A stretch of 64,000 bases of DNA, taken from assembly GCA_001462345.1 (NCBI GenBank), contig LIUM01000010.1, positions 1-64,000 on the forward strand, read 5' to 3'. The stretch is from Fibrobacteria bacterium AD312. GTDB taxonomy: Bacteria > Fibrobacterota > Fibrobacteria > Fibrobacterales > Fibrobacteraceae. This document shows positions 142 through 55,727 of this stretch, piece by piece. The position numbers and the translations under genes were made by a program. The notes below the pieces were generated by a model. That model had not been told where the DNA came from and ran no database searches. It was given only the letters and a program-made list of their open reading frames with translations. How positions within the stretch are numbered: the first letter of the stretch is position 1; each line of letters begins with the position of its first letter.

Positions 142-153
142 TATATTAAAATC
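142..153 (+). promoter_or_regulatory. -10-like hexamer abutting hemN start
   Basis: TATATT at 142-147 ends 6 nt before the hemN ATG at 154, and no purine-rich ribosome binding site lies in between. A transcript starting about 7 nt after this hexamer would begin at the start codon. The same TTTTCTATATTA string precedes der. TTGCAT at 122-127 is a possible but poorly spaced (14 nt) -35. Bases 1-121 otherwise show nothing I recognise. Confidence 0.45.
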
Positions 154-1500
154 ATGATTGAAACTCTTCTACACTATAATATCAATGCCCCTCGATATAC
201 AAGCTACCCACCAGCGAATCTTTTTAGAAAAGCAGAAAATGAATTAGAAGTAGAAGAATTATGGAAAGCATCTAATTCCTTAAATCCATCCAATTTAAGC
301 TTTTATTTTCATATCCCTTTTTGTTCTAAACGATGCCTTTTTTGTGGCTGTACTTCTGAGACGATAAAAGAAGATTCATATAGAGAAGAGTATATGAATT
401 CCATTGCTCTCGAAATGGAAAAAAAATTACCATGGATTGATTCGTCTAGAAAAGTCACGCAAGTGCATTTTGGTGGTGGGACTCCTACTAGTGTTCCTGT
501 GAGTGAATTGAAATCCATTTTAGATAGGCTAAAAGAAAGATTTACTTTTTCATCGAGAGCAGAAATTGCTATAGAATGTAATCCAGCTTCCGTGACAGAG
601 ACTCTTCTTTCGGATTTAGCTCTAGCAGGTTTTAATCGCATTAGTTACGGAATCCAAGATTTTAATTTAGAGACGCTTCGCCTCATTGGCCGAGATCCTT
701 CTTTAATTGATGTCCCGTCTCTTGTTTCTCTTTCCCATAAACTCGGCTTTCAAAGCGTTAATTTGGATTTGATTTATGGCTTACCAGGGCAAACACTCGA
801 AAGCTTTTCTGATAGCGTTTCAAAAGCAATTGCGGCTAATCCAGATCGAATTGCCCTTTTTAGTTATGCTCACGTCCCTTGGAAACGCCCAGAACAAAAG
901 CGATTAGAAGAATACCATATTCCTGATGCTTATCATAAAATGAGTTTTTTCCTAAAAGCTCGCGATATGTTTAAAGAAGCGGGTTATCAAAATATCGGAA
1001 TGGATCATTTTGTTAAATCTTCTGACTCCTTATTTTTTGCTTCCGAGCAAGGTCTTTTACATCGTAATTTTCAGGGCTATTGTACAAGAAGTACAACGGG
1101 GCAAGTCTATGCCTTTGGTTCTAGTGCCATTTCTCAGCTAGATAACGCTTATCTACAAAATACACATATCACTTCAGACTATATGGAAAAAGTAAAAAGG
1201 CAAGAAATGACTGAGGTGCGCGTTCATCCATTAACGGAAAATGAAAAAATTTGGCGAAATATGATTGAACGGTTAATGTGTAATAACGCGTTAAAAATCA
1301 ATGAAATAGAGAAAAAGGCACTCGGAGAAAGATGGAATCGTCTCTGTGCGCTAGAAAAAGAAGGACTTTTAACGAAAATAAATGACGATGAAATCCGCAC
1401 AACAACACTTGGTTCGCTTGTAATTCGTTATTTGGTCTCTGTAATAGACCCGTTACTTGAAAACCAAGAGTCTGAAGGCGTTTTTAGTAAGACTATTTGA
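154..1500 (+). CDS. hemN: Oxygen-independent coproporphyrinogen III dehydrogenase (HemN)
   Basis: Radical SAM enzyme that oxidatively decarboxylates coproporphyrinogen III to protoporphyrinogen IX in haem synthesis without oxygen; cytoplasmic. The 448 residues match the usual HemN length (about 450). The N-terminal RYTSYP motif (14-19) and the cluster-binding cysteines C57, C61, C64 with the extra C66 (CxxxCxxCxC) separate HemN from HemW, which lacks the last cysteine. The SAM-binding GGGTPT motif follows near residue 107, and the C-terminal HemN domain is complete. It has no Shine-Dalgarno; a -10-like TATATT lies just upstream. Its last 8 bases overlap the 3' end of the convergent argF gene, so neither gene has a separate terminator. 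Confidence 0.93.
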   Translation: MIETLLHYNINAPRYTSYPPANLFRKAENELEVEELWKASNSLNPSNLSFYFHIPFCSKRCLFCGCTSETIKEDSYREEYMNSIALEMEKKLPWIDSSRKVTQVHFGGGTPTSVPVSELKSILDRLKERFTFSSRAEIAIECNPASVTETLLSDLALAGFNRISYGIQDFNLETLRLIGRDPSLIDVPSLVSLSHKLGFQSVNLDLIYGLPGQTLESFSDSVSKAIAANPDRIALFSYAHVPWKRPEQKRLEEYHIPDAYHKMSFFLKARDMFKEAGYQNIGMDHFVKSSDSLFFASEQGLLHRNFQGYCTRSTTGQVYAFGSSAISQLDNAYLQNTHITSDYMEKVKRQEMTEVRVHPLTENEKIWRNMIERLMCNNALKINEIEKKALGERWNRLCALEKEGLLTKINDDEIRTTTLGSLVIRYLVSVIDPLLENQESEGVFSKTI

Positions 1501-2440
1501 TGCTTTTAGTGGCAGTCATCACTTGCCAAAGAATTGCTTTTTGGGCATGCAAGCGATTTTCAGCTTCTTCATAACTAAAGTTTTTAGATCCATCCATCAC
1601 AGAATCAGTGATTTCTTCGCCACGATGTGCTGGCAAACAGTGAGAAACCTTGCAATGTTCTGGAGCAAGAGTCAATAAGTGATCGCTAATTTGGAAAGGA
1701 AGGAAGTGACTTTGTTTTGATTCTTTTTCACCTTCTTGACCCATACTAACCCAAACATCACTATATAAGATATCGGCATCAACAACAGCTTCTTCTGGGG
1801 TATTGAATACGCGGTATTTACAGCCACGTTTTTTAAGAAGAGGAAGAGATTCTTCTACAATCCATTTCGGCTGTTCAAACCCTTTGGGACAAGCTAAAGT
1901 GAAGTTCATACCGAGCTTAGCACATAGCGTTAATAGAGAATTTGCCACATTATTCCCATCGCCAATAAATGCAACGGTTTTACCTTGGAAATCGCCCATT
2001 TGTTCACGAAGCATTTGAGCAAAAGAGACGGCTTGACATGGATGAAAATCGTCTGTTAAAGCATTAATAACAGGGATATCTCCATAAAGAGCGAGTTGTT
2101 CGACTAGTTCTTGCTTAAAGCAGCGAACTACAAGGGCATTGATCCATCGAGAAAGACAACGAGCAACATCTTTGATGCTTTCACGTTTTCCAAGCCCAAT
2201 AGAATCAGGGTCTAGAATAACTGGTAATCCACCAAATTGATGAATACCTACTTGAAAAGTGGTAATTGTTCGTAAAGAAGGTTTTTCGAAAAACATACCA
2301 AGAGACTGGCCTTTAAATCGGTCAGAATATTGCCCTGAATGTACCTCTGCTTTTAAGCGGCAAGCAATATCTACTGTTTCTAGAATTCTTTCTTCGCTCC
2401 AATCAGCGAGGCGAAGTAAATGCTTCTGACGATCAATCAT
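1493..2440 (-). CDS. argF: Ornithine carbamoyltransferase
   Basis: Transfers the carbamoyl group from carbamoyl phosphate to ornithine to give citrulline in arginine synthesis. At 315 residues it has the normal length. Carbamoyl-phosphate motif S55-L-R57-T, the HPCQ motif, the dinucleotide-like GDGNNVA stretch, DVWVSMG (ornithine binding) and HCLPAHRGEE near the C-terminus are all present; the DxxSMG and HCLP motifs favour ornithine over aspartate or acetylornithine carbamoyltransferases. The second arginine of the usual STRTR motif is isoleucine (I59); the main phosphate-binding R57 is kept. A GAGG lies 17 nt before the ATG, too far for an ideal ribosome binding site. It converges on hemN with an 8-base overlap. 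Confidence 0.9.
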   Translation of the reverse strand: MIDRQKHLLRLADWSEERILETVDIACRLKAEVHSGQYSDRFKGQSLGMFFEKPSLRTITTFQVGIHQFGGLPVILDPDSIGLGKRESIKDVARCLSRWINALVVRCFKQELVEQLALYGDIPVINALTDDFHPCQAVSFAQMLREQMGDFQGKTVAFIGDGNNVANSLLTLCAKLGMNFTLACPKGFEQPKWIVEESLPLLKKRGCKYRVFNTPEEAVVDADILYSDVWVSMGQEGEKESKQSHFLPFQISDHLLTLAPEHCKVSHCLPAHRGEEITDSVMDGSKNFSYEEAENRLHAQKAILWQVMTATKSIK

Positions 2441-2484
2441 GTTTGTTCTTTCAGACCTCTAAGTTAAAACTTAAAATGTTATTT

Positions 2485-2519
2485 AAAAAGAAAAAGGCTG
2501 TTTGAAATAATCAAACGCC
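2485..2519 (-). terminator. Rho-independent terminator of the aro operon
   Basis: On the minus strand, GGCGTTTGA / TCAAACAGCC pair around an ATTATT-type loop (one bulge) and are followed by a run CCTTTTTCTTTTT. It sits about 70 bp after the stop of the leftward sugar-nucleotide reductase gene and before argF. Confidence 0.7.
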
Positions 2520-2589
2520 ATTCTCAAGAGAGAGAAAGTACAATATATATTCTTTTTTTATAAAGGGAAGAAAAAAAAGAAAAAAATAA

Positions 2590-3576
2590 TTATGGAGTAG
2601 ACATTTTTTGTTCCGTTTGCATTTTTAGCTCTAAACGCCGTCTAATCACCATTTCATTGAATAAATCGGTTAAGCTGTCTTCTATGCTAATTAGAGGTTT
2701 CCAGCCAATACTCATTATTTTAGTGGGGTCACCAATTAATAAAGGAATATCATTTGTTCTTTCTAAGGCAGGATCGTATCTAAAATCGACACTTACACCT
2801 GCAATATCAATTAAAAATTCAGTAAGTTCTCTGAAAGTATATGATTTTCCACAGCAAATATTATAAATGGAGCCAGATTCACACCCATTAAGCACTTGAA
2901 TCATTCCTCTAGCAACATCTCGAACATCTACAACATCACGACTAATATCAAGACTTCCTGTAAATAAAACAGGTTCGGTTCCGTAGTGCTTGATTTTTAC
3001 GAGCTGGTAGGTGATGGATGGAATGGCAAAACGTCTGCTATGGTGAGGGCCTGTAAAATGGAATGGACGAACAAAAACGATATGCAATCCATAGGCATTT
3101 CTAAATTGGTTCCCAAGTATTTCCATACACGCTTTTGAGGAGGCATAAGGTGTTAATGGGTTAGGAAGACTAGATTCTTTATGTAATGTCGTTAAATGTT
3201 CTTCGGTACGACCATAAATTTCACTGGAGCTCAAAAGAAGAACTTTGGCTTTAGGGCAGGCTTGGCGCACTACCTCAAGCAAGTTTTGAGTTCCTAGAAG
3301 ATTAGTACTTAAGGTTTCAAATGGCTTTTTATAAGAAAGACCAACAGAAGATTGGCTAGCCAGATGGTAAATGTATTGAGGTTGTATCTTTTGAATAACT
3401 TCAAAAAGATCTTTAAAATTCAATAAATTACCTGTTAAATAATTAACGTCTGGTACTTTTTGCCATGGTTGTGGTTGTTCATCACTAAAACTAAACAATT
3501 TACGGCCAGAGCGCGTGACTCCAGATAAAATGTGAAACCCTAAGGCTCCTGTACCACCAGTGACAAGAATACTCAT
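2590..3576 (-). CDS. NAD-dependent epimerase/dehydratase, GDP-4-dehydro-6-deoxymannose reductase-like
   Basis: Extended short-chain dehydrogenase acting on a nucleotide sugar. The N-terminal TGGTGALG glycine-rich motif binds NAD(P), SSSEIYG contains the catalytic serine, and YASSK is the YxxxK catalytic pair. RPFHFTGP, the RDVVDVRDVA block and the late DIPLLIGD segment resemble Rmd-type reductases and GDP-mannose 4,6-dehydratases, so a role in making a deoxyhexose for surface polysaccharide is likely; the exact substrate cannot be fixed from sequence. Its ATG overlaps the stop of the aroK-aroB gene by 4 bases, making it the last gene of the leftward aro operon, an odd companion for shikimate genes. 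Confidence 0.8.
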   Translation of the reverse strand: MSILVTGGTGALGFHILSGVTRSGRKLFSFSDEQPQPWQKVPDVNYLTGNLLNFKDLFEVIQKIQPQYIYHLASQSSVGLSYKKPFETLSTNLLGTQNLLEVVRQACPKAKVLLLSSSEIYGRTEEHLTTLHKESSLPNPLTPYASSKACMEILGNQFRNAYGLHIVFVRPFHFTGPHHSRRFAIPSITYQLVKIKHYGTEPVLFTGSLDISRDVVDVRDVARGMIQVLNGCESGSIYNICCGKSYTFRELTEFLIDIAGVSVDFRYDPALERTNDIPLLIGDPTKIMSIGWKPLISIEDSLTDLFNEMVIRRRLELKMQTEQKMSTP

Positions 3577-5198
3577 AGTTCCTCTTTTGCCCGAATAGAA
3601 TCCCAGGCGTTGTTAATGATCTGTTCATCAATATTAGAATGCTTTTCTACAAAACCAATTTTATGTGGAAGAATATAATTTCTATTATTTTTATCCACTT
3701 TTTTATCAATACTCATTGCTTTCCAAGCTTCTTCGGCTGAAACATTAAAAGAAGTAGGAAATCCAAATCGATTCAATAGATTGTTTTGGCGCTCTTCATC
3801 TTGTGAAGTCCAGAGATTAAGAAGGGTAGCGACTCTACCAGCGACTCTCATCCCTAAACTAACAGCAATTCCATGAGAAAATTTTTGATAATTCGTCAGT
3901 TTTTCAATGGCGTGGCCAAAGGTATGTCCATAATTCAAAATAGCTCGAAGCCCTGTTTCTTTTTCATCTATTCCGACGACTTCTGCTTTAATTTCACAAC
4001 TGCGTTTAATGAGTTGTTTTAATATTTCAGGGTCTTTATTGAGAATGGATTCCACATGGTTCTCGATAAAATCAAAAAAGGCGGCATCGTAAATCACACC
4101 ATATTTTATGATTTCAGCGAGTCCAGCTAAAAATTCTTGGTGAGGAAGAGTGCTTAAAACCGAAATATCGCAAATCACGGCTTTTGGTTGATAGAAAGCT
4201 CCTATCATGTTTTTCCCTTCAATATGATTCACTGCCACTTTTCCACCAACAGAACTATCAACCATACTGAGTAGCGTTGTGGGAAGCTGAATAAAAGGGA
4301 TTCCACGTTGGTACGTGGCGGCACCAAAGCCAGCCATATCTCCAACAACACCGCCGCCAAATTGAAGTAGACAAGTTTTTCTACTAAAATGACGACGAAG
4401 CATAAAGGTGTATAGCTGATTTAAACTATTAAAGTTTTTATTTATTTCACCAGATCTGAATTTAAAAACAAGAGATTGAGAAGATTGATTTCTAAGTTGA
4501 GAAATTGCTTGACTTTGTGCTTTTGCAACGGCATTATCAGTACAAATTAAAAAGTCATGAGAAGGCATTAATTGAAGACCTTCTAGAAGAATTCCCATTC
4601 TGGATAACAAATGATTTCCAATAAAAATAGGGTAGCGATCACCAGAAGACGTTTCTACGTTTAATACATGATCTTCCCAAAAATGTAAAAGGCGAACCAC
4701 TCGTTCAGTGACGTGTTCTTCAGGGTATTCATTAGAACTTTCAACGCTAAAATCAGCTTTAGAATAGTAAACTTCTCTTTCTACTAGAAGTGTTTTTACT
4801 TTTTCTAGCCGTTGAGTATCGTCAAGACCAGCCATTAATGGACGATTGTTTTTTCTACTAATCCGTTCCGATAAAACTTCAGGTTCAGCCCATAGACGAA
4901 TTAAAACACCTGATTGACGAATGGCTTTGACAACAGAAGCTTGTGTTAAAGCGCCTCCACCTAGGGAGATGACTTTTGGCTCTGGGTCGGTAGCTAGTTT
5001 TTCAATGACTTCCAATTCCATTTTTCGAAAAGCGGCTTCACCGTCTTGTTCAAAAATTTCGGAAATGCTTTTGTTTGCTTGTTCTGCAATTAAAAAATCA
5101 GTATCAATAAATGGACGTTTTAAGCGTTCAGCAACATGACGACCAACTCGACTTTTACCACTCGCCATAAAACCAGTAAAATAAATATGCTTATACAT
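3573..5198 (-). CDS. aroKB: Bifunctional shikimate kinase / 3-dehydroquinate synthase (AroK-AroB fusion)
   Basis: One polypeptide joins two shikimate pathway enzymes. The N-terminal part (to about residue 165) is shikimate kinase: Walker A GFMASGKS (9-16), the DTD shikimate/Mg motif, the FRKMELE arginine region, SLGGGAL and the lid RPLM. The C-terminal part (about 180-541) is dehydroquinate synthase: FGGGVVGDMAG, PTTLLSMVDSSVGGK, KYGVI and NYGHTFGHAIE with metal-binding histidine. I start it at the ATG whose upstream GAGGGG lies 4-5 nt away; this gives 541 residues and overlaps the aroE stop by 8 bases. An in-frame upstream extension of 11 residues lacks family similarity. Fused AroKB proteins are known from some other bacteria. 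Confidence 0.92.
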   Translation of the reverse strand: MYKHIYFTGFMASGKSRVGRHVAERLKRPFIDTDFLIAEQANKSISEIFEQDGEAAFRKMELEVIEKLATDPEPKVISLGGGALTQASVVKAIRQSGVLIRLWAEPEVLSERISRKNNRPLMAGLDDTQRLEKVKTLLVEREVYYSKADFSVESSNEYPEEHVTERVVRLLHFWEDHVLNVETSSGDRYPIFIGNHLLSRMGILLEGLQLMPSHDFLICTDNAVAKAQSQAISQLRNQSSQSLVFKFRSGEINKNFNSLNQLYTFMLRRHFSRKTCLLQFGGGVVGDMAGFGAATYQRGIPFIQLPTTLLSMVDSSVGGKVAVNHIEGKNMIGAFYQPKAVICDISVLSTLPHQEFLAGLAEIIKYGVIYDAAFFDFIENHVESILNKDPEILKQLIKRSCEIKAEVVGIDEKETGLRAILNYGHTFGHAIEKLTNYQKFSHGIAVSLGMRVAGRVATLLNLWTSQDEERQNNLLNRFGFPTSFNVSAEEAWKAMSIDKKVDKNNRNYILPHKIGFVEKHSNIDEQIINNAWDSIRAKEEL

Positions 5199-6096
5199 GA
5201 GACCCCTCATCATTTTGAATAAGAACATCATTCATGAATAAGGCATTCGAAAGAATGTGATCTTTTTTAGAATACTCAGGAAACCATTTTGCAAAGCTAG
5301 CAGCCCCTTGAGCGGCAAGCATTCCTGTTCCTAGGATTACCTTACAGCCTATGGATTTTGCTTCTTGTAAAAGGCGAGTTTCTGGAGGGTTGTACACAAT
5401 ATCGTATACAATTTGTGAAGAACGTAATTGATTTTTTTGTAAGGGGGTTTCATCAATTGAAGGAGCCATCCCCACGGAAGTGGCGTTAATAATCAGATCG
5501 ATTGAATCTGTAATCGATTCAAAATTCTCAAATAAAATTGTTTTTTGTTTTGCCAGAGTGACTTCACTAAGATCGTGAATCAAAGCTTCGCCTTTCATTT
5601 GATTTCTGGAGACAATCGTAAGAGGAATCCCTTGTTTTGCTAAGACAAAAGCAATGGCTCTAGCGGCACCACCATTACCTAATAGAGCTACTTTTACAGA
5701 AGAGTCTAACTCAAAAGAAGGTCCCAACGCATTTTGTAAATTAAATAGGGCTCCATATGGATCCGTTGTTGTTCCCATCAATGTGGAACCAACGATACCA
5801 TCTTTCCAGTATAGCGTGTTCACGCTTCCTGTGAACTTTGACAATGAATCTAGTTCATCGACTAAAGAGATAATTTTTTCTTTAAAAGGGATTGTTACGT
5901 TAGCACCTATAAAACCAAAAGTACGAAACGCTTGAACAGCTTGTGGTAGTTGTTCAGGTAAAAATGTAAAGGGAAGATAAGTAGCATTGATATTTAAGCG
6001 ATTCAGTAATGCATTTTGCATCACTGGAGATCGTGAGTGTTCAATAGGATATCCAAAAACGCCAAGCAATTTTGTTTTGCCATTTATGTGCGTCAC
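5191..6096 (-). CDS. aroE: Shikimate dehydrogenase
   Basis: Reduces 3-dehydroshikimate to shikimate with NADPH. Shikimate-binding SRSP motif (in GYPIEHSRSP), catalytic lysine in NVTIPFKE, the TTDPYG aspartate motif, NADP-binding LGNGGAARA and the late GMLAAQGA block with its glutamine are all visible; 301 residues is a little longer than usual. The start is GTG with AGAGGA 4 nt upstream. First gene of the leftward aroE > aroKB > reductase operon; dehydroquinase (aroD/Q) is not in the window. Confidence 0.92.
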   Translation of the reverse strand: MTHINGKTKLLGVFGYPIEHSRSPVMQNALLNRLNINATYLPFTFLPEQLPQAVQAFRTFGFIGANVTIPFKEKIISLVDELDSLSKFTGSVNTLYWKDGIVGSTLMGTTTDPYGALFNLQNALGPSFELDSSVKVALLGNGGAARAIAFVLAKQGIPLTIVSRNQMKGEALIHDLSEVTLAKQKTILFENFESITDSIDLIINATSVGMAPSIDETPLQKNQLRSSQIVYDIVYNPPETRLLQEAKSIGCKVILGTGMLAAQGAASFAKWFPEYSKKDHILSNALFMNDVLIQNDEGSHV

Positions 6097-6691
6097 AAAG
6101 TCCTCTATTTTTATAGGAACTTCAATTTTTAAAGAATTCTCAAAATTTGATTTTCAAATTTTTTTTCAATAACATTTTGTGCATACAGGTCTATTTGCCA
6201 AAATAAGTGCAGCAGACATGCTTCATGAATACACTGCGTGTTGCACTTACAAGTGTCTAAATACTAAAATGGTAAAAACCATTCGTGTATGGACTCTTTG
6301 CAAAAATTTCCCCATAATTACTTGGTTATTAAAAAAATACCAAAGCAATTTTCAGAGAAGCCTTTTAGCGTTTTTAGCGCTAATTGGAAAGTTCCATGAT
6401 TTATTTCCTCATAAAAATACATATTTAAATGTATTATGATTCTCAAAAACACAATTGTTTCGCTTTTTTTACGTCATTTTAAGCAATGTTATCAAGTGAA
6501 CTATCCAGAAAACATTTCTTGGTTAAAAGCAAAACGTCTCTTTTTTGAGATTTTTAGTGGTCTGTTTTTACTTTTTTTAAAACTTTTTTCTGTTTTCTCT
6601 AAGATGTTTGTTTTTCCCATTTTTTAATACAATAAAACATAGAAACCTCTTATTTTTATACTCCAAATAACGCTTTTTCTAAATCCTTTTC
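6097..6691. other. Gene-free interval between aroE and der with several hairpins
   Basis: About 600 bases lie between the divergent aroE and der genes. Two short open frames here have no recognisable features and I do not accept them. Inverted repeats do stand out: TAAGTGCAGCA/TGTTGCACTTA (6204-6249, 11 bp with one G-U pair), CACTTacAAGTG (6244-6255, competing with the first), AATGGT/ACCATT (6268-6283), TTAGCG/CGCTAA (6365-6383) and AATACAT/ATGTATT (6416-6435). None is followed by a clean T-run. A structured small RNA is possible but unproven. Confidence 0.4.
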
Positions 6692-6703
6692 TATATTAGC
6701 GGC
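6692..6703 (+). promoter_or_regulatory. -10-like hexamer abutting der start
   Basis: TATATT at 6692-6697 ends 6 nt before a GTG (6704) and 9 nt before an in-frame ATG (6707). No Shine-Dalgarno is present. The arrangement copies that of hemN. Confidence 0.45.
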
Positions 6704-8146
6704 GTGATGAAATTACCTGTAGTATCTATCGTTGGACGCCCAAATGTGGGGAAGTCCTCTCTTTTTAACCGAATTTTAGGTCGCCGTGCTGCGGTGGTAT
6801 CTGATCGTGACGGTGTCACTCGGGATCGCCATTATCAAACCGCGAACTATAAAAATCGTGAGTTTATCATCATTGATACAGGTGGTTTTCTGCCTGATGA
6901 TACGATTGACGTATTAGCAGATAGCGTTCGAGTGCAGATTTTTAATGCCATACAAGATTCCGATTTAGTCTTATTTATGGTGGATGTTCGAGTTGGCATT
7001 ACTGAGTTGGATTTACAATTTTCCCGAATGATTAAGCGTTTAGACAAAAAAGTCATTTTAGTTGCCAATAAAAGCGAAAAAGAGTCGGATCGTACAGAAA
7101 GTTGGAACTTTTTACCTTTAGGTTTTGGGCCTCCTCATACTGTTAGCGCACTTACTGGATATGCTTGCTTATCTCTTTTAGATCAAGTCTTAGAACTTCT
7201 TCCAGGTGAAAAGTCTATTCGTAGACAAGAAGAACGTCCTATTCGTTTTGCCATTTTGGGCCGTCCAAATGCAGGCAAGAGCACGCTTTTAAATAAGATT
7301 TTGAACGAAGAACGAGCTGTAGTATCTGATGTTCCAGGAACAACTAGAGATTCTATTGATTGTCAATTTACCGTCGATGATGTTCCTTTTGTTGTAACAG
7401 ATACGGCAGGACTTCGTAAAAAAGCACGCGTTTCTGATGAAGTTGAAATTTTTAGTAATATGCGAACGATGGAAAGTATTCGTCGCTCGGATGTTTGCGT
7501 TTTAATGATTGATGTGACTCGTGGTTTAGAAGTTCAAGATTTTAGAATTATTACTGAGATTAGAAAAGCTGGAAAAGGCTTAATCATTCTTCTAAACAAA
7601 TGGGATATTTTAGAAAATAAGACTGAAAAATCATTTGACCATCTTGTAAAAGACATGGTCGAACGAGAAACCATGCTCGAATGGGTGCCAATTATTTCCA
7701 TTAGTGCTCTTGAAGGGCAGCGTGTGCATCGTTTAGTGGATGAAATAAAAAAGGTCTATTCCAATTGCCGCCGTGTACTTGGACGAGAACACTTGGCTGA
7801 GTTTTTTGCTGGTTTAACAATAAGAAATCCTCATCCACCACGCCAATCCAGAATTATTGTATTAAATAGAGCTTGCCAAACAATGGTAGAGCCGCCAGTG
7901 ATTACTATTGAAACAAGAACACCTGAACTTGTCGATGAAGCGTATAAGCGCTACTTACTGAAAAATTTTTATGAAGAATTTCAGTTACATGGCGCCCCTT
8001 TGAGATTAAATTTTGATCAGAAATTAACCCTTAGAAAGGATGAAGAACTTGAGCAGTTTACTGAGTCTTCCAATAGCGTATTTGTTGGGGTCGATCCCTT
8101 CAGCCGTATGGATCGCGAAAATCGTAAAAAAAATAGACATACGTGA
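6704..8146 (+). CDS. der: Ribosome biogenesis GTPase Der (EngA)
   Basis: Essential double GTPase that acts in 50S ribosomal subunit maturation. Two G domains are seen in tandem: GRPNVGKSSLFN (about 11-22), DTGG and NKSE in the first; GRPNAGKSTLLN, DTAG and NKWD in the second; a KH-like domain follows to about residue 445. The start is GTG 6704 or the adjacent ATG 6707. The last 35 residues (after the usual end near LRLNFDQK) are encoded in a 107-base stretch that is also the beginning of plsY, in another frame, so this tail is unlikely to be conserved outside close relatives. Confidence 0.93.
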   Translation: MMKLPVVSIVGRPNVGKSSLFNRILGRRAAVVSDRDGVTRDRHYQTANYKNREFIIIDTGGFLPDDTIDVLADSVRVQIFNAIQDSDLVLFMVDVRVGITELDLQFSRMIKRLDKKVILVANKSEKESDRTESWNFLPLGFGPPHTVSALTGYACLSLLDQVLELLPGEKSIRRQEERPIRFAILGRPNAGKSTLLNKILNEERAVVSDVPGTTRDSIDCQFTVDDVPFVVTDTAGLRKKARVSDEVEIFSNMRTMESIRRSDVCVLMIDVTRGLEVQDFRIITEIRKAGKGLIILLNKWDILENKTEKSFDHLVKDMVERETMLEWVPIISISALEGQRVHRLVDEIKKVYSNCRRVLGREHLAEFFAGLTIRNPHPPRQSRIIVLNRACQTMVEPPVITIETRTPELVDEAYKRYLLKNFYEEFQLHGAPLRLNFDQKLTLRKDEELEQFTESSNSVFVGVDPFSRMDRENRKKNRHT

Positions 8147-9905: not shown

Positions 9906-10847
9906 TTACGATTCTTTTTTAGGTAGCCTTACAAATACAACAGCTCCTTGAATAGCTTGAAATAACAAGGGAATATAGCCAATAAGAGTAGATGCTAAAA
10001 CAACATCTGCTGGAATACCAAGCAAAGTGGAGTAGAGACTAACCTGTACATTTTCTCTAATTCCAATACCATTAATTGAGATGGGGAGCATTGTTAGTGT
10101 AACAGTAATGGTTGTAAATACTGTGATTGTCCAAAGATCTATTGAATACCCAACCGCCTTAAAATAGGCGAAGTGAATTAAAATCGAGAAAACTTGAAGC
10201 CAAATGGAATCAAGTCCAGAAAGGAGAAATGCTTTTTTATGATGTCTATAAACGCTAAAGGCATTTTGTAATTTTGCAATAAAGGGTATTTTTTCTGCTA
10301 ATGCATCTGGTATTTTAATTTTATCTAAAAATAAAAACATGAATACGGATAATAGTGCTATTAAAGAGCATGCTATAATAAAAATCATGTAATAGTCAGG
10401 AATTGAAAAGCGAGATAAAACAATTGGAAGAGCTATAAAAAAACAAAGAAACATGGCAAGTAAACCCATGATTCTTGAAACAGCAACTGCTGCAACTGAT
10501 TGAGCTGTTTGGCTAAAACGTTTTCCAAAAGAAATAGTTTTAACGGCGTCACCACCAAAACCACCAGGCAGTAAATTATTGAAAAAATAACCTAAAGCAA
10601 TATAAGCATAAAATGTTCGGAATTTTACTTTTTTACCATCTTCCAGTAACAAGCCTCGCCAACGGTTGGCTTGAATTCCCATAGATAAAAAAGTCAAGAA
10701 AAGAATAAAAACGACCCAAGGAACCATATTCATGCTCCAATGAGTCATGGTTTCTTTTAAGGGGACTTTCCAAAAGATATAAATAAGACCACTACAGCTT
10801 ATAATCGCCTTGAAAATAGTGGATAATATTTTTTTATAAGGAATCAT
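9906..10847 (-). CDS. YbhN/UPF0104-type flippase-like membrane protein
   Basis: Polytopic inner-membrane protein of the lysylphosphatidylglycerol synthase transmembrane-region family. Some eight hydrophobic segments span 313 residues; family signatures NRWRGLL, NNLLPGGFGGDAVK (about 94-107) and ISINGIGIRE are clear. The family is often found beside glycosyltransferases and is thought to act in lipid or glycolipid translocation or regulation; no reaction can be assigned. The gene lies 18 bp after a glycosyltransferase gene on the same strand and probably shares its mRNA. It has no evident ribosome binding site. Confidence 0.8.
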   Translation of the reverse strand: MIPYKKILSTIFKAIISCSGLIYIFWKVPLKETMTHWSMNMVPWVVFILFLTFLSMGIQANRWRGLLLEDGKKVKFRTFYAYIALGYFFNNLLPGGFGGDAVKTISFGKRFSQTAQSVAAVAVSRIMGLLAMFLCFFIALPIVLSRFSIPDYYMIFIIACSLIALLSVFMFLFLDKIKIPDALAEKIPFIAKLQNAFSVYRHHKKAFLLSGLDSIWLQVFSILIHFAYFKAVGYSIDLWTITVFTTITVTLTMLPISINGIGIRENVQVSLYSTLLGIPADVVLASTLIGYIPLLFQAIQGAVVFVRLPKKES

Positions 10848-10865
10848 GAGGTAAATTTAGCTTTC

Positions 10866-40614: not shown

Positions 40615-41459
40615 CCGATAAAGAATACGCTCCAGCGAAGATCAACTTATTTTTAGACATTTTACGTAAACGCCCCGATGGGTACCATGATTTAGGAACT
40701 GCTTTTCAAACCATTGACGCAGGGGATACATTAGAAGCATCACTTCGAAAAGATACTTCTATTACTCTTTCCTATAATGCAAAACAAGATTATCCTGTTG
40801 AGTCTGATTTAGTCTATAAGGCAGCTCATTTACTTCAAAGTACTTATGACGTAAAAATGGGTGTGGATTTATACCTTACTAAAACGATGCCTATTGGAGC
40901 TGGCCTTGGTGGTGGCAGTGCCGATGCGGCGGCTGCACTACGTCTTTTAAATCGGCTCTGGGGGCTTTCATTATCTGCAAAAGAACTTGAATCTTTAGGT
41001 CTGCATCTCGGTGCCGATGTTCCTTTTTTAGTGGAAGGTGGGCTTTCTTTTGCGGAAGGTATTGGTGAAAGATTAACACCTATGCCTCCTCTTACACTTT
41101 CTAATTCGCTTATTCTCTTAATTGCGACTCCTCAGTGTGCAGTACCAACTAAAGCCGCCTATGCAGGCGTAAAGCTTTCTGGAGAGGATCGTTGGAATCA
41201 ATGGAAAAGCAACTATGTTTCAACGGCAATACCAGAACTATACAATAAGTTTGAAGAATCTGTTTTACCTCAATTTCCATTGATTGCCGATATGAAAAAG
41301 GACTTTTTAGCCTATGGGGCTATCGCTTCATTGATGTCAGGCTCTGGGTCCTCTGTTTTTGGCTTTTTCGAAAACCGTCGAGAGGCCGATTTAGCCCTCT
41401 CCAAATTGGGAAACCGAGCTCGTTGGGCTGCAGTGACCACTTTTTTTGAAAAAAAGTGA
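40611..41459 (+). CDS. ispE: 4-diphosphocytidyl-2-C-methyl-D-erythritol kinase
   Basis: GHMP kinase of the methylerythritol phosphate route to isoprenoids, phosphorylating CDP-ME. AKINLFLDILRKRPDGYH at the N-terminus contains the substrate lysine, the ATP loop is PIGAGLGGGSADAAA (about 93-107) and the C-terminal MSGSGSSVFG motif closes the site. 282 residues, normal length. ATGA overlap with ftsK indicates translational coupling. tRNA-Gln follows about 60 bp later. Confidence 0.94.
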   Translation: MTDKEYAPAKINLFLDILRKRPDGYHDLGTAFQTIDAGDTLEASLRKDTSITLSYNAKQDYPVESDLVYKAAHLLQSTYDVKMGVDLYLTKTMPIGAGLGGGSADAAAALRLLNRLWGLSLSAKELESLGLHLGADVPFLVEGGLSFAEGIGERLTPMPPLTLSNSLILLIATPQCAVPTKAAYAGVKLSGEDRWNQWKSNYVSTAIPELYNKFEESVLPQFPLIADMKKDFLAYGAIASLMSGSGSSVFGFFENRREADLALSKLGNRARWAAVTTFFEKK

Positions 41460-41519
41460 AAAAAGCGTAGAAAATCCCTTTAAATTTATTTTGAATTCTA
41501 TTATCTTTGGGTCTCCCTA

Positions 41520-41591
41520 TGGGGTATCGTCAAGTGGTAAGACAACGGATTTTGATTCCGTTATTCGTTGGTTCGAATCCAGCTACCCCAA
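41520..41591 (+). tRNA. tRNA-Gln (anticodon TTG)
   Basis: 72 nt without encoded CCA. Acceptor stem TGGGGTA/TACCCCA is perfect; D arm GTCAAGTGGTAAGAC, anticodon stem ACGGA/TCCGT with loop TTTTGAT (anticodon TTG at 41552-41554), and T arm GTTGG-TTCGAAT-CCAGC are all standard and close to E. coli tRNA-Gln(UUG). Flanking bases pair further (CCTA at 41516-41519 with TAGG at 41592-41595) and eight Ts follow at 41597-41604, 13 nt before the rplY start. Confidence 0.97.
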
Positions 41592-41616
41592 TAGGCTTTT
41601 TTTTACTGGAGTTATT

Positions 41617-42195
41617 ATGGAATTCACTTCGCTCAAAACAACCTCGAGAGTATTAGGCGCAGGCCGCGAAACAAATCGCTTGCGCAAGTCCGGTCAGGTT
41701 CCGGCTGTCTATTATGGTAAGGGTCAGGAGCCAGTGCATCTTAGCGTTAGTGCTATTGATGTACGCAAGGTCCTAGCCCCTGGCAAGCGTTATACGCTTT
41801 TGGATCTTGAAATTGACGGTAAGTCAGGTAATCCTGCACTTGTTTATGTCTACCAAAAAGATTCCATTTCTCAAGAAATTACACACATTGACTTTTTAAG
41901 AATTGATGAAAATACATCAGTTCCTGTGCGTATTCCTGTGCGTATTTCTGGCATGCCTATTGGTGTTAAGTCAGAAGGTGGTATGCTTTCTCAAGAAAAC
42001 TACTATATTAAGTTATCAGCTCCTGTTGCTAAAATTCCTTCATCAATCGAAATCGATATTTCTGATTTCCATGCAGGAACAACATTCTATGCTGAAAATT
42101 TAAAATTAGAGGATGGAGTTTCTTTAGTTTCTAAACCTCGCACCGTGATTTTTGCGATTTCAAAAGCACGTGCAAAAGAAGCCGCTTCAAAATAA
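41617..42195 (+). CDS. rplY: Ribosomal protein bL25 (Ctc/TL5 form)
   Basis: Binds 5S rRNA in the 50S subunit. The 192 residues include the L25-like N-terminal domain (about 5-95; GRETNRLRKSGQVPAVYYGK, HIDFLRI) and the longer C-terminal Ctc/TL5 beta domain (about 100-190). The start is the ATG with GGAG 5-6 nt upstream; the open frame reaches back through the tRNA gene, which is not coding. It lies directly behind tRNA-Gln and in front of pth, a translation-related cluster. Confidence 0.93.
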   Translation: MEFTSLKTTSRVLGAGRETNRLRKSGQVPAVYYGKGQEPVHLSVSAIDVRKVLAPGKRYTLLDLEIDGKSGNPALVYVYQKDSISQEITHIDFLRIDENTSVPVRIPVRISGMPIGVKSEGGMLSQENYYIKLSAPVAKIPSSIEIDISDFHAGTTFYAENLKLEDGVSLVSKPRTVIFAISKARAKEAASK

Positions 42196-44945: not shown

Positions 44946-44983
44946 AAGTATTTATTTAAAAAAATAATACTATTTTCTTCTTT

Positions 44984-45736
44984 GTGGATATCAATAATAA
45001 AATGCCTTTTGCATTGACTGTGGCAGGGTTTGATGGCTCTGGTGGTGCAGGAATTCTCGCCGATATTAAAGCTTTTGAATCTTTTGGCGTTTATGGGCAA
45101 GCGGTCTCTACAGCAAATACAATTCAAAATGAATCTGAATTTATGGAACCTGGTTTTTTGCCATGGAACACCATTTTAGCTCAGTTAGAAGCCTTATATC
45201 GCAAGCGTTCTTTTGATTTTGTCAAAATAGGCCTTATTCCTTCTGCAGAAATTTTGAAAAATGTAGTGGAGTACATTCGAAAACATTCTCCAAAAGCTTT
45301 TATTATCTGGGATCCTATTCTTTCTGCTAGTGCTGGTTATAAATTCTTTACTCCTCAAGAAGTCGATTCTTTTTTACCTTGGCTAAATCAAATGGATCTT
45401 ATTACACCTAATCAAAACGAATTTACGTTTCTTGGGCTTGGGCTTGCAGCTTCTAGGGGTGAAGTAAAAATTGGATCTGATTTTGCCGTTTTATTAAAAG
45501 GCGGGCATCAAAAGGGAGACATGTCCACTGATACTTTATGGCTTGAAGATAAACAATTTAAGTTTTCTTCTAAACGTATCCCTGGACAAGGTAAACATGG
45601 TACTGGCTGTACGCTGTCGGCAGCGATTCTAGCCAATTTAACTTTAGGGCATTCTTTAGTAGAATCCTGCCAAATTGCTAAAAACTATTTGGATCAATTC
45701 CTAAAAGGCGGTGAAGGCCTTTTAGGAAGAGTCTAA
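44984..45736 (+). CDS. thiD: Hydroxymethylpyrimidine / phosphomethylpyrimidine kinase
   Basis: Phosphorylates HMP and HMP-P in thiamine synthesis. Ribokinase-fold signatures ALTVAGFDGSGGAGILADIK at the N-terminus, WDPILSASAG, TPNQNEF and the ATP/anion-hole motif KHGTGCTLSAAI near residue 205 are clear; 250 residues. Two starts are possible: GTG 44984, 7 nt after a TATTTT, or ATG 45002; neither has a Shine-Dalgarno. The 3' end of the gene contains a 12-bp hairpin and the stop lies 2 bases from the convergent typA stop. Confidence 0.9.
   Translation: MDINNKMPFALTVAGFDGSGGAGILADIKAFESFGVYGQAVSTANTIQNESEFMEPGFLPWNTILAQLEALYRKRSFDFVKIGLIPSAEILKNVVEYIRKHSPKAFIIWDPILSASAGYKFFTPQEVDSFLPWLNQMDLITPNQNEFTFLGLGLAASRGEVKIGSDFAVLLKGGHQKGDMSTDTLWLEDKQFKFSSKRIPGQGKHGTGCTLSAAILANLTLGHSLVESCQIAKNYLDQFLKGGEGLLGRV
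45698..45728. terminator. Hairpin inside the thiD 3' end, shared with convergent typA
   Basis: TTCCTAAAAGG / CCTTTTAGGAA, an 11-bp perfect stem (12 with C45709-G45717) encoded within the last codons of thiD and immediately after the typA stop on the other strand. No strong T-run on either side. Confidence 0.5.
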
Positions 45737-47649: not shown

Positions 47650-47662
47650 TATATTTGTTTCT
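47650..47662 (+). promoter_or_regulatory. -10-like hexamer abutting ruvX start
   Basis: TATATT at 47650-47655 ends 7 nt before the ATG at 47663, with no Shine-Dalgarno, as for hemN and der. Confidence 0.4.
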
Positions 47663-48073
47663 ATGAAATATTTAGGCATTGATTTTGGCGAAAGACGCGT
47701 TGGACTTGCTGTGGGCGACTCAGAACTACGTTTTGCTTTTCCTAGAGAGACTATTGATACCCGATTACAAGATCTATGGATAAGGCTTGATGAGATTGTT
47801 TTGAATGAAAAAATAGACCATTTTGTAGTAGGAATGCCTTTTCATCCAGATGGGCGAAAAGATGGCAAAAACAAGGTCGTAGAGGTCTTTATTGACGAAT
47901 TAAAGGAGCATTTCCCTGAAATCCCTATTTTTACTCAAGATGAATCGTATTCTAGTGTCCAAGCTTTACAACAGACTTCTTATATGAGTCGAAAAAAAAA
48001 GAAGGATAAAGGAATTGTAGATAGAGCAGCAGCGACAATTATTTTACAAAACTGGTTAGACGGAAATATTTAA
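47663..48073 (+). CDS. yqgF: Putative pre-16S rRNA nuclease / Holliday junction resolvase-like YqgF (RuvX)
   Basis: RNase H-fold nuclease of 136 residues. First catalytic aspartate in LGIDFGERRVGLA (position 6), glutamate region VVGMPFHPDG, DESYSS and the final aspartate in DRAAATIILQNWL are intact. In E. coli the family member processes the 5' end of 16S rRNA; a recombination role has also been proposed. The receiver-like gene follows 22 bp later and is probably co-transcribed. Confidence 0.92.
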   Translation: MKYLGIDFGERRVGLAVGDSELRFAFPRETIDTRLQDLWIRLDEIVLNEKIDHFVVGMPFHPDGRKDGKNKVVEVFIDELKEHFPEIPIFTQDESYSSVQALQQTSYMSRKKKKDKGIVDRAAATIILQNWLDGNI

Positions 48074-49790: not shown

Positions 49791-51842
49791 TTAGTGGACA
49801 GAGGCTTCGTCTTTGACATCGCAAGAAACTGGTGTCCCATTAAATTCAAGACGATTATCGTTACAGAAAATAGTATTGTCTTTAACGTAAAGAGATATTT
49901 TGTCGAAGTCTTTTATTTTTAATTCTCTGCTTTCAGAAGGTGTAATTCCTTTAAATAAAGCTCTAGCACCAATTTTTGTATTGGCTGGTGGAGCTACCAG
50001 AACGGCTTTCCCTTCTTCACCATCTCCAGCGAGGAGCATTCCCATGCTCATAATCCCGCGAAGCGGTGCTGGTTTTAAATTGGAAAAAAGTAAAATTAGG
50101 CGGTCTTGAAGTTCATCTTTAGAATAGCTTTTTTTAAGCCCAGAACAAATCGTCCGAACTTCACTTTCGCCTGCATCGACTTTTAATACGTAAAGACTTT
50201 CGGCGTCAGGATGATCTTCTACAGAAATGATTTTGGCGCATCTAAGATCTAATAAGGAAGGTACATCTGTTGCAAGTATTGGTTTATTTTGTTCTTTTGT
50301 TTTTGGTGGTGGAGGTGGAGCTTTTTCCACTTCAATTCTTGGGAATAAAGGATTCCCTTCTCCAAAGGATTCTCCACCTTGGAATTTGCCCCAGTGAAGA
50401 TCTTTTTCACCTTCACAAGTAGTACCGAGCATGGCTAAGCCTTCTATAGTTTTAGTAGGCATAACAGGCCATAAAAAGCATAATGATAAACGAACGGCTT
50501 CGGCAGCAGTAAATAGAACAGTGGCGAGTTCGTCTTTGGCTGAATCATCCTTCGCTAGTTTCCATGGAGCTTTAATTTCGAGATAGCGATTGATTCCTCG
50601 AACAAGACTCATAATATCTTCAATCACTTGAGACAACTTGACTTGAGTAATCCCTGAAAAAACTTGTTCTTTAACTTGATTAGCAAGAGTGATTAATTCT
50701 TGAGCAGGTGCATCTATTTGAGTTGCCTTTGGAAGCTTGCCTTCAAAGTTCGTTAGAACTAAACGATGGACTCGGTTCAATACATTACCCAAATCATTAG
50801 CTAAATCACTGTTGATTCGACGCTTAAAAGCATCATCACTAAAAGTACAATCTTGACCCACCACCATTTCTCTTGCAAGAAAATAGCGAAATGCGTCAAC
50901 TCCAAATTGTTCCATGTAATCCATTGGATTTACGCCTGTGCCGCTGGATTTACTCATTTTTGACCCACCAGTCAACCACCAACCATGTGCTAAAACATGC
51001 TTTGGTAAAGGGATTTCAAGAGCCATAAGCATGGTTGGCCAGTAGACGCAATGCGTCGTAAGAATATCTTTCCCTATTAAATGATAAGAAGCAGGCCAAA
51101 TAGGTTCTCCATTCTCATAAGTTCTATCTCTAACGCCACTAACATAGTTGATTAGAGCATCAAACCAAACGTAGGTCACATATTCATCATCAAATGGAAG
51201 GGGAATTCCCCAGTTTAAACGAGATTTAGGGCGGCTAATGCAAAGATCATTAAGCGGTTGTTTTAAGAATCCTAAAATTTCGTTTCTACGATAATCAGGA
51301 AGAATCCAATCAGGATTTTCTTCAAGATGAGTAATCAATCGTTGTTGATACATTCCCATTTTAAAGAAATAATTTTTTTCTTTTAACCATTCGACAGGGC
51401 GTCCACTGATGGGGTCCTTGCTATCGACAAGTTCTTCTTCACTAAAAAAACGTTCTTCACCGACAGAATACCAACCTTCGTATTCTTTGGAGTAAATTTC
51501 ACCTTTATCCCAAAGCTTTTGTAAGCATTCTCTGACAAATTGCTTGTGGTCTGCATCTGTTGTTCGAATAAAATAGTCATAATTAATATCCATTTTATTC
51601 CAGAGATTTTTAAACCGAAGATTGTACTCATCAACATGGGTTTGTGGGTCTACTTGTCTTTTAGCGGCCGCTTGCTGCACTTTTTGTCCATGTTCATCTG
51701 TACCAGTTAGAAAAAAGGTTTGATAACCGATTAGTTTATGAAAACGTGTTAAAATATCGGCTAAAACAGTAGTATAAGAATGCCCAATATGAGGGGCGTC
51801 ATTAACGTAATAAATTGGGGTAGTGATGTAAAAGTTTTTCAT
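49791..51842 (-). CDS. metG: Methionyl-tRNA synthetase
   Basis: Charges tRNA-Met. 683 residues: class I Rossmann domain with TTPIYYVNDAPHIGH (HIGH at 18-21), GTDEHGQKV, KMSKS near 296, anticodon-binding helical domain, a proline-rich linker (PPPPPK near 532) and a C-terminal tRNA-binding EMAP-II/Trbp111-like domain (about 560-660; DLRCAKI, HPDAESLYVLKVD). A zinc knuckle in the connective peptide is not evident (SVGEERFFSEEELVD), as in zinc-free forms. No Shine-Dalgarno; TACATT ends 6 nt before the ATG. Confidence 0.95.
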   Translation of the reverse strand: MKNFYITTPIYYVNDAPHIGHSYTTVLADILTRFHKLIGYQTFFLTGTDEHGQKVQQAAAKRQVDPQTHVDEYNLRFKNLWNKMDINYDYFIRTTDADHKQFVRECLQKLWDKGEIYSKEYEGWYSVGEERFFSEEELVDSKDPISGRPVEWLKEKNYFFKMGMYQQRLITHLEENPDWILPDYRRNEILGFLKQPLNDLCISRPKSRLNWGIPLPFDDEYVTYVWFDALINYVSGVRDRTYENGEPIWPASYHLIGKDILTTHCVYWPTMLMALEIPLPKHVLAHGWWLTGGSKMSKSSGTGVNPMDYMEQFGVDAFRYFLAREMVVGQDCTFSDDAFKRRINSDLANDLGNVLNRVHRLVLTNFEGKLPKATQIDAPAQELITLANQVKEQVFSGITQVKLSQVIEDIMSLVRGINRYLEIKAPWKLAKDDSAKDELATVLFTAAEAVRLSLCFLWPVMPTKTIEGLAMLGTTCEGEKDLHWGKFQGGESFGEGNPLFPRIEVEKAPPPPPKTKEQNKPILATDVPSLLDLRCAKIISVEDHPDAESLYVLKVDAGESEVRTICSGLKKSYSKDELQDRLILLFSNLKPAPLRGIMSMGMLLAGDGEEGKAVLVAPPANTKIGARALFKGITPSESRELKIKDFDKISLYVKDNTIFCNDNRLEFNGTPVSCDVKDEASVH

Positions 51843-51854
51843 AGTGCAAATGTA
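51843..51854 (-). promoter_or_regulatory. -10-like hexamer abutting metG start
   Basis: TACATT (plus-strand 51849-51854) ends 6 nt before the metG ATG on the minus strand. A -35 element would have to fall inside the terminator hairpin of the upstream gene. Confidence 0.4.
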
Positions 51855-51856
51855 GA

Positions 51857-51889
51857 AAAAGAAAAAGCTTCCTGCAAAAGGAAGCTTTT
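51857..51889 (-). terminator. Terminator of the porin-like gene
   Basis: AAAAGCTTCC / GGAAGCTTTT, 10-bp perfect stem with a 7-nt loop, followed on the minus strand by TTTTTCTTTTTC. It ends only a few bases before the presumed metG -10. Confidence 0.85.
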
Positions 51890-55192: not shown

Positions 55193-55205
55193 TACATTAC
55201 GGGGT
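55193..55205 (+). promoter_or_regulatory. -10-like hexamer abutting gamma-carbonic anhydrase start
   Basis: TACATT at 55193-55198 ends 7 nt before the ATG at 55206. A GGGG stands only 1 nt from the ATG and is too close for a normal ribosome binding site. The 190 bases upstream show no gene. Confidence 0.4.
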
Positions 55206-55727
55206 ATGAGTTTTTCTTTAATCAGTTTCAACGGTAAAGTCCCAAAATTGGGTAAAAAGGTCTATTTAGCCGATGGCGTTCGTTTAATTGGTGATATTGA
55301 AATTGGTGACGATTCGTCTGTTTTTTTTAATGCTGTTTTACGGGCAGATATTTCTTCCATTCGTATAGGTTCTCGTACTAATATTCAAGATAATGTTACT
55401 ATACACCTTTCTCACATCAAAGGCATAGAAATTGGAAATGATGTGACTATTGGTCATAACGCTATCTTACATGCTTGTACTATTCAAGATCATTGTTTAA
55501 TTGGAATGGGTGCTATTGTTATGGATGGAGCAATCATCAGAAAAAATTCTGTGGTTGCTGCTGGTGCCTTAGTCACTCCAGATAAGGAATATCCCGAAGG
55601 CTCATTAATCATTGGTGCTCCTGCTCGAATCGGGCGTTCATTAACAGTGGAAGAAATGGAAATGAATGCGAGAGATGCAGCTAATTACGTTATAGTTAAA
55701 GATGAATTGCTTCAAGGATCTGAATGA
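55206..55727 (+). CDS. Gamma-carbonic anhydrase family protein
   Basis: 173-residue left-handed beta-helix of hexapeptide repeats. The family signature RADISSIRIGSRTNIQDN and the three zinc-binding histidines H67, H84 and H89 are in place (TIHLS, IGHNAILH), so a metal site is likely. Family members (YrdA, CaiE, Cam) vary from active carbonic anhydrase to unknown. It couples to the diacylglycerol kinase-like gene by an ATGA overlap. Confidence 0.88.
   Translation: MSFSLISFNGKVPKLGKKVYLADGVRLIGDIEIGDDSSVFFNAVLRADISSIRIGSRTNIQDNVTIHLSHIKGIEIGNDVTIGHNAILHACTIQDHCLIGMGAIVMDGAIIRKNSVVAAGALVTPDKEYPEGSLIIGAPARIGRSLTVEEMEMNARDAANYVIVKDELLQGSE

Follow-up and report, generated by a model that had tools for sequence, protein, structure and literature searches.

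Many genes of Fibrobacteria bacterium AD312, a relative of the rumen bacterium Fibrobacter, carry a TAHHTT-type hexamer (the box) a few nucleotides before a start codon that lacks a Shine-Dalgarno (SD) sequence. Judging from the DNA sequence, this hexamer is very probably the −10 element of a promoter, and the mRNA would start at the start codon or within about 3 nt of it, with no leader for the ribosome. The first-pass annotation had suggested such leaderless mRNAs for six genes. This reading is the best supported, based on the fixed spacing, the restriction of the box to SD-less genes heading a transcription unit (heads) and the conservation of the box, with the transcription start positions being predicted ones. 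In the proposed mechanism, a −10 element of the TAHHTT(T)(G) type belongs to the gene's own promoter. With the box at 6 nt, RNA polymerase would begin transcription exactly at the start codon; with the box at 7–9 nt, it would begin as much as about 3 nt earlier. The resulting mRNA would have neither an SD site nor space for one, and the ribosome would directly recognise the 5′-terminal start codon. Direct initiation on a 5′-terminal start codon is established for leaderless mRNAs elsewhere.

The distance between the box and the start codon was counted in 750 kb of the AD312 genome (about 26% of the total), where start codons were assigned by simple rules and the ORF caller picks the longest ORF. 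TAnnTT shows a sharp peak 6 nt before starts, where 42 genes have it over a background of about 8 per position. The enrichment of the 6–7 nt spacing over shuffled upstream regions, which had been predicted, is clearly observed in SD-less heads: 57 of 266 bear TAnnTT there, compared with 10.4 ± 3.1 and a maximum of 21 in 200 dinucleotide shuffles. The box and the SD are mutually exclusive among heads, since only one of the 164 SD-bearing heads has the hexamer at this distance (4.5 expected). None of the 171 genes overlapping an upstream gene has it (2.8 expected). Likewise, a PWM score above 4 is reached by 73 of the 266 SD-less heads but by 1 of 89 overlapping SD-less genes. The EM motif of the SD-less heads is TAHHTT(t), whose occurrence peaks at 6 and 7 nt with a shoulder at 8–9 nt. 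In E. coli, used as a control, no TAnnTT peak is found at that spacing.

Features outside the box should also be noted. ATG is the start codon in 89% of the leaderless class, compared with 64% of the remaining SD-less genes. The base at −1 is a pyrimidine in 77/97 versus 202/348 (P = 1.3e-4), a transcription-start preference that is independent of the search criteria. Several divergent pairs whose starts are only 25–60 nt apart bear the box. The leaderless pattern fits 73 of the 601 sampled genes directly and 17 more via a downstream in-frame start (decoy count, 7). The excess over decoys is 59 genes, and some of the 73 candidates are thus chance matches. About 12–14% of the genes in the 750-kb sample, roughly one in eight, therefore appear to be leaderless, and the rest rely on an SD or on some other form of leadered initiation. 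The fraction is probably underestimated, because longest-ORF calling yields TTG starts in 28% of the remaining SD-less genes.

The window, i.e., the whole 64,000-nt stretch of DNA analysed, contains the six proposed genes. All six hexamer-to-start spacings proved exact when the sequence was read again, and an SD-like tetramer is missing from the usual place in 6/6 starts. When the gene names were tested against NCBIfam curated cut-offs, hemN, der, ruvX and metG scored above and thiD and the carbonic anhydrase below, although the best family of these two was the right one. On the forward strand, TATATT at 142..147 stands 6 nt before the ATG (154) of hemN (oxygen-independent coproporphyrinogen III oxidase, 154..1500, TIGR00538), which has no SD and is predicted to be leaderless. 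The same prediction applies to ruvX/yqgF (47663..48073, + strand, TIGR00250), a divergent gene with its neighbour 91 nt away, whose TATATT box (TATATTTG) at 47650..47655 is located 7 nt before the ATG (47663). The thiD-like kinase gene (44984..45736, + strand; best family TIGR00097) has TATTTT at 44971..44976, 7 nt before its GTG (44984). It is probably leaderless but may also be read from upstream, because a co-directional gene lies only 38 nt away. In the gamma-carbonic anhydrase family gene (55206..55727, + strand; best family NF050158), also a putative leaderless gene, TACATT at 55193..55198 is 7 nt before the ATG (55206). A GGGG sequence ends 1 nt before this ATG, and the nearest relatives do not have it. 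The PWM score of this box is 3.5, and individual weak boxes such as this one may be chance matches. A seventh box overlooked in the first-pass annotation, TAAATT at 10854..10859 on the minus strand, is 6 nt before the ATG at 10847 and has a PWM score of 8.6 and no SD.

The start codon of der (ribosome biogenesis GTPase, 6704..8146, + strand, TIGR03594) had been taken to be the GTG at 6704. The gene is divergent from its neighbour, with 607 nt between them. The TATATT box at 6692..6697 is indeed 6 nt from the GTG. However, the sequence reads GTGATG, and GTG as the true start is unproven, since it is the ATG (6707), 9 nt from the box, that is conserved as the start in Fibrobacter. There, the conserved ATG lies 8 nt after the box instead of 9 nt as in AD312, and the motif tttCTATATTTaCA is found at 8 nt in the examined Fibrobacter loci despite differing upstream DNA.

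The strongest candidate for a leaderless gene is metG (methionine–tRNA ligase, 49791..51842, minus strand, NF008900). Its TACATT box (TACATTTG) at 51849..51854 on the minus strand is 6 nt before the ATG (51842). According to a terminator scan, the co-directional gene upstream has an intrinsic terminator at 51863..51889 on the same strand, with an 11 bp stem and a T-rich tail (fold, −13.4 kcal/mol; z, −4.07). The T tail extends up to the −10 box, and this abutment leaves hardly any room for a metG leader. No canonical sigma70 promoter was detected when metG was scanned for one. Similar hairpins adjoin the box by eye at L255, L264 and L269.

The same peak is found in four more Fibrobacteria genomes of 37–60% GC (26 vs 5.6, 12 vs 1.8, 9 vs 1.1 and 12 vs 0.9 expected), and the box persists in the genomes of 53–60% GC. 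Orthologs of the window genes hold the box at 6–8 nt while the upstream DNA diverges; P values for these ortholog counts take no account of shared ancestry. For metG, class-wide and with GC-rich genomes included, 17 of 20 orthologs have the box at 6–8 nt (0.9 expected), as do 22 of 26 further family loci. The corresponding numbers are 8/10 for hemN at 6–7 nt, all eight in the same family (0.8 expected), 12/20 for der at 6–8 nt (1.0 expected), 9/20 for ruvX at 6–8 nt (0.7 expected) and 7/15 for TAnnTT at 6–8 nt in the gamma-carbonic anhydrase gene (0.6 expected). The thiD box occurs in 7/15 orthologs (0.8 expected) and at 6–7 nt in both same-genus genomes. Eight of the 11 ruvX orthologs without the box have an SD-like sequence. 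In small random samples of reciprocal-best pairs, LL-LL pairs number 7 (4.3 expected) and LL-SD pairs 7 (13.1 expected); the leaderless state is thus only modestly conserved there, in samples too small for proof. Starting genes without a leader, from a −10 of Bacteroidota type, might be an old, selected trait of the class Fibrobacteria, with housekeeping genes, metG foremost, staying leaderless through changes of GC content and neighbourhood out of a need for SD-independent translation, e.g., when initiation factors or ribosomes change. We consider this idea rather doubtful.

The box had been compared with a sigma70-type −10 from which transcription starts about 7 nt on. The predicted start position agrees with this, but the identity with the E. 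coli TATAAT does not hold, since the box is TAHHTT. Among SD-less heads with TAnnnT at 6–7 nt, positions 5–6 are TT in 100 of 127 (background, 48%), and G at positions 3–4 accounts for only 1–2%. The resulting TA(not G)(not G)TT is like the −7 element of Bacteroidota and unlike TATAAT. The Bacteroidota element is TAHHTTTG and in F. johnsoniae spans −12 to −5, with G at −5 (PMC6847099). Given this span, TAnnTTTG-4-ATG would put +1 on the A of ATG. The TTTG extension is enriched (9 vs 0.6), though present in a minority of boxes. No −35 element is visible upstream of the boxes, and neither is the Bacteroidota −33 element TTTG.

Could the hexamer be a ribosome-binding signal of leadered mRNAs, such as a U-rich S1 site or an AT-rich RBS, with no promoter function? 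Non-canonical AT-rich RBSs are described for the FCB group (GeneMarkS-2, cited in PMC9581028), and most mRNAs of Bacteroidota have a leader but no SD (PMC6847099; PMC9723704). However, SD-less overlapping genes, where an RBS is equally needed, essentially lack the signal. In its letters the signal corresponds to a −10 element (TAHHTT, G being excluded from positions 3–4), it is kept at 53–60% GC, the metG signal directly follows a terminator and the −1 position is pyrimidine-rich. The AT-rich RBS reading is very unlikely, and we reject it on the overlapping genes, the −10-like letters, the metG terminator and the −1 pyrimidine.

There is likewise only a slim probability that the box, though a genuine promoter, plays a minor or alternative part, with the bulk of the mRNA being leadered and coming from promoters further upstream. 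A second upstream promoter may exist for individual genes, above all thiD, which is located, as are 14 of the 73 candidates, less than 60 nt from a co-directional upstream gene. Nevertheless, selection would not hold the box at one distance from the start codon if the short transcript were unimportant, and there is no space for such a promoter after the metG terminator, or in divergent pairs 25–60 nt apart unless it lies inside the neighbour. Chance occurrence of TAnnTT at any distance in AT-rich upstream regions has almost no likelihood. With a genome of about 63% AT, some 10 matches at 6–7 nt are expected among the 266 SD-less heads, but the 57 observed exceed every shuffle, and the peak is position-specific, present in GC-rich relatives and conserved. 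Chance is thus rejected for the class.

Leaderless genes are a known kind in some other bacteria, and no earlier report was found for Fibrobacterota. TA-led genes occur in Actinobacteria and Deinococcus-Thermus (Zheng et al. 2011, PMC3160421), and in Deinococcus a −10 motif adjoins ORFs (PMC12340547); the motif in those groups is TANNNT/TATAAT, whereas the AD312 box is TAHHTT. Fibrobacteres are not among the bacterial groups with leaderless genes found in 953 genomes (PMC3160421), and Fibrobacter is unmentioned in PMC3160421 and PMC12340547. The likeness to Bacteroidota lies in the −10/−7 element TAHHTT(TG). Bacteroidota have no SD and are mostly leadered, with leaderless mRNAs at 5.5% in F. 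psychrophilum (PMC9723704) and 87% of leaders longer than 10 nt in F. johnsoniae (PMC6847099), whereas AD312 uses SD and has predicted leaderless starts frequently. The FCB AT-rich RBS class (GeneMarkS-2, cited in PMC9581028) is likewise an AT-rich signal just before starts in the same broad group, but for at least part of the Fibrobacterota signal a promoter −10 is the better reading.

If the leaderless reading is correct, Fibrobacterota is one more phylum with frequent leaderless genes. Its position in the tree is close to Bacteroidota, which have lost SD and in which leaderless mRNA is rare. SD-dependent and leaderless starts would occur in it together with a −10 like that of Bacteroidota, a combination well suited to studying how the SD was lost in Bacteroidota. 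On this reading, software that looks for an SD will place Fibrobacter gene starts wrongly. For expression work in these cellulose degraders, a promoter of about 25 bp could be joined directly to the ATG.

For Bacteroidota promoters (TTTG / TAnnTTTG), the sigma factor is sigma-ABfr, a protein without region 1.1. No canonical RpoD exceeds the NCBIfam cut-off in any of 21 genomes; the best match in AD312 (292 aa) scores 190 bits against a cut-off of 354. AD312 has only short sigma-70 family factors, four in number, which may be a likeness to Bacteroidota, and one of them probably reads the box. Among the relatives, G012 and G020 do possess a longer protein resembling RpoD. When EM was run on leadered SD genes to look for the same −10, poly-T and poly-A were the only motifs to emerge. 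The 16S gene was not found in the AD312 assembly; the anti-SD CCTCC was read from the 16S of two relatives. In the relative G003, a TTGACA-16-TATAAT-like sequence is seen by eye before the 16S gene.

Leaderless-type starts in this Fibrobacter relative are well supported as real. The window covers the first 64 kb of a contig 89.5 kb long, which belongs to a genome of 2.83 Mb (99% complete, about 37% GC). The closest public relatives of the window's der gene come from Fibrobacter: it matches an anaerobic Fibrobacter MAG at 95% identity and rumen Fibrobacter at 75–77%. The spacings of 6–7 nt between a −10-like hexamer and the start codon that the first-pass annotation claimed for hemN, der, ruvX, metG, the gamma-carbonic anhydrase gene, and (tentatively) thiD each match a letter-by-letter reading of the sequence, and the identities of the six genes were checked. 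A seventh such start, absent from that list, is TAAATT-6-ATG (10845–10859, minus strand), belonging to the gene starting at 10847.

ORFs in 750 kb of the AD312 genome were called by a simple coding score and classified by SD-like sequence and upstream gene. TAnnTT forms one sharp peak 6 nt 5' of the start codon (42 genes), while neighboring positions, except the one abutting the start, have 4–19 genes. In the comparison proposed by the first-pass annotation, the 6–7 nt spacing is enriched in SD-less non-overlapping genes (57/266 versus 10.4 in dinucleotide shuffles), as against 1/164 SD-bearing genes able to head a transcription unit and 0/171 genes overlapping the upstream gene. No peak is seen outside the SD-less genes without such overlap. 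A position weight matrix obtained by EM has the consensus (C/T)-T-A-H-H-T-T-t; its sites lie mostly 6 or 7 nt from the start codon, with a shoulder at 8–9 nt. In all, 73 of the 601 genes fit it, versus approximately 14 at decoy positions (excess approximately 59). Allowing downstream in-frame starts adds 17 genes (out-of-frame decoy, 7). The identical pipeline finds no peak in 200 kb from E. coli K-12; in 200 kb from each of four relatives with GC contents of 54, 53, 37, and 60%, it finds 12, 9, 26, and 12 genes versus 1.8, 1.1, 5.6, and 0.9 expected, respectively. Simple AT-richness as the source of the peak is ruled out, because the peak is present in GC-rich genomes.

Three independent signs point to transcription starting at the start codon. 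The −1 base is a pyrimidine in 77/97 genes of the leaderless set versus 202/348 other SD-less genes (P = 1.3e-4; versus SD genes, P = 0.024). The terminator of the gene upstream of metG (stem, 51889–51863) has a T tail reaching into the TACATT box, so that a metG transcript begun past it has a leader of at most about 20 nt; a promoter at the box would leave metG without a leader. In several divergent gene pairs, just 25–60 nt separates the two start codons, and one side or both carry a box. At one locus (G000 C4, +9701), the start codons of a divergent pair are separated by 26 nt and each gene has a TAnnnT box on its own side; two opposed leaderless promoters would therefore overlap. Terminator-like hairpins of the upstream gene also lie directly 5' of the metG −10 box at three loci (L255, L264, and L269) of other Fibrobacter relatives.

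For metG, TAnnTT is found at 6–8 nt in 17/20 genomes across the class, mostly as TAnATTTG-nnnn-ATG, with TAGATTTGGGCCC-ATG among the variants in GC-rich genomes. At further loci of the family, the box is at 6–7 nt in 22/26, and the remaining four have a similar box slightly more distant. For der, CTATATTTACATACG-ATG is retained in Fibrobacter while the farther-upstream DNA is unrelated, and in several relatives from termite guts an SD leader takes the place of the box. Orthologs of hemN (8/10), ruvX (9/20), carbonic anhydrase (7/15), and thiD (7/15) retain it as well. The ortholog P values assume independent sequences though orthologs share ancestry, and the divergence of the upstream DNA is the better argument for conservation. 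Comparison of random samples shows turnover of the leaderless state between genomes (leaderless in both, 7 pairs versus 4.3 expected; leaderless/SD, 7 versus 13.1).

In TAnnnT boxes, positions 5–6 are TT in 100/127 (background, 48%), and positions 3–4 almost never hold G. The box resembles the Bacteroidota −7 element TAHHTTTG, which covers −12 to −5 (PMC6847099), so that TAnnTTTG-4-ATG puts +1 on the A of ATG; unlike in that element, TG follows TAHHTT in only some genes here. Upstream of the boxes, neither a −35 nor a −33 element can be seen. No canonical RpoD was found in the AD312 genome, which has four short sigma-70 family proteins of 292, 285, 255, and 270 residues (loci L218, L216, L217, and L003:9962–10774), and none of 21 relatives has RpoD above the NCBIfam cut-off. 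Two more distant genomes retain a longer RpoD-like protein. Region 2.3–2.4 of the 292-residue factor reads FISYAVWWIRQSI where SigA/RpoD have FSTYATWWIRQAI. We infer that one of the four short factors reads the box. In the relative G003, a TTGACA-16-TATAAT-like sequence 5' of the 16S rRNA (L066, about 1–60) differs from the TAHHTT boxes of protein genes.

RNA polymerase would initiate at the start codon or within 3 nt of it, and, lacking a leader, the ribosome would have to engage a 5'-terminal start codon. This ribosome step is proposed here because such engagement is established for leaderless mRNAs of E. coli, mycobacteria, and Deinococcus.

These starts belong to an ordinary kind and seem to be new for this phylum. 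Of 953 bacterial genomes, 207, mainly from Actinobacteria and Deinococcus-Thermus, have been described as having leaderless genes preceded by a TANNNT box some 12 bp upstream, and Fibrobacteres are absent from the groups named (PMC3160421). Our literature search, with thin coverage of subscription journals, found neither leaderless genes nor mapped starts described for Fibrobacter. Flavobacterium has few leaderless mRNAs (5.5%; PMC9723704), and non-canonical AT-rich ribosome binding sites have been inferred in the FCB group (PMC9581028). The SD logos of Fibrobacteres have been reported to be weak but detectable (PMC3155529), which fits a genome mixing SD and leaderless genes.

The TTG start of a weak ORF at 41446–42195 is probably wrong, because a tRNA-Gln(ttg) predicted by ARAGORN (41520–41591, plus strand) falls within it.
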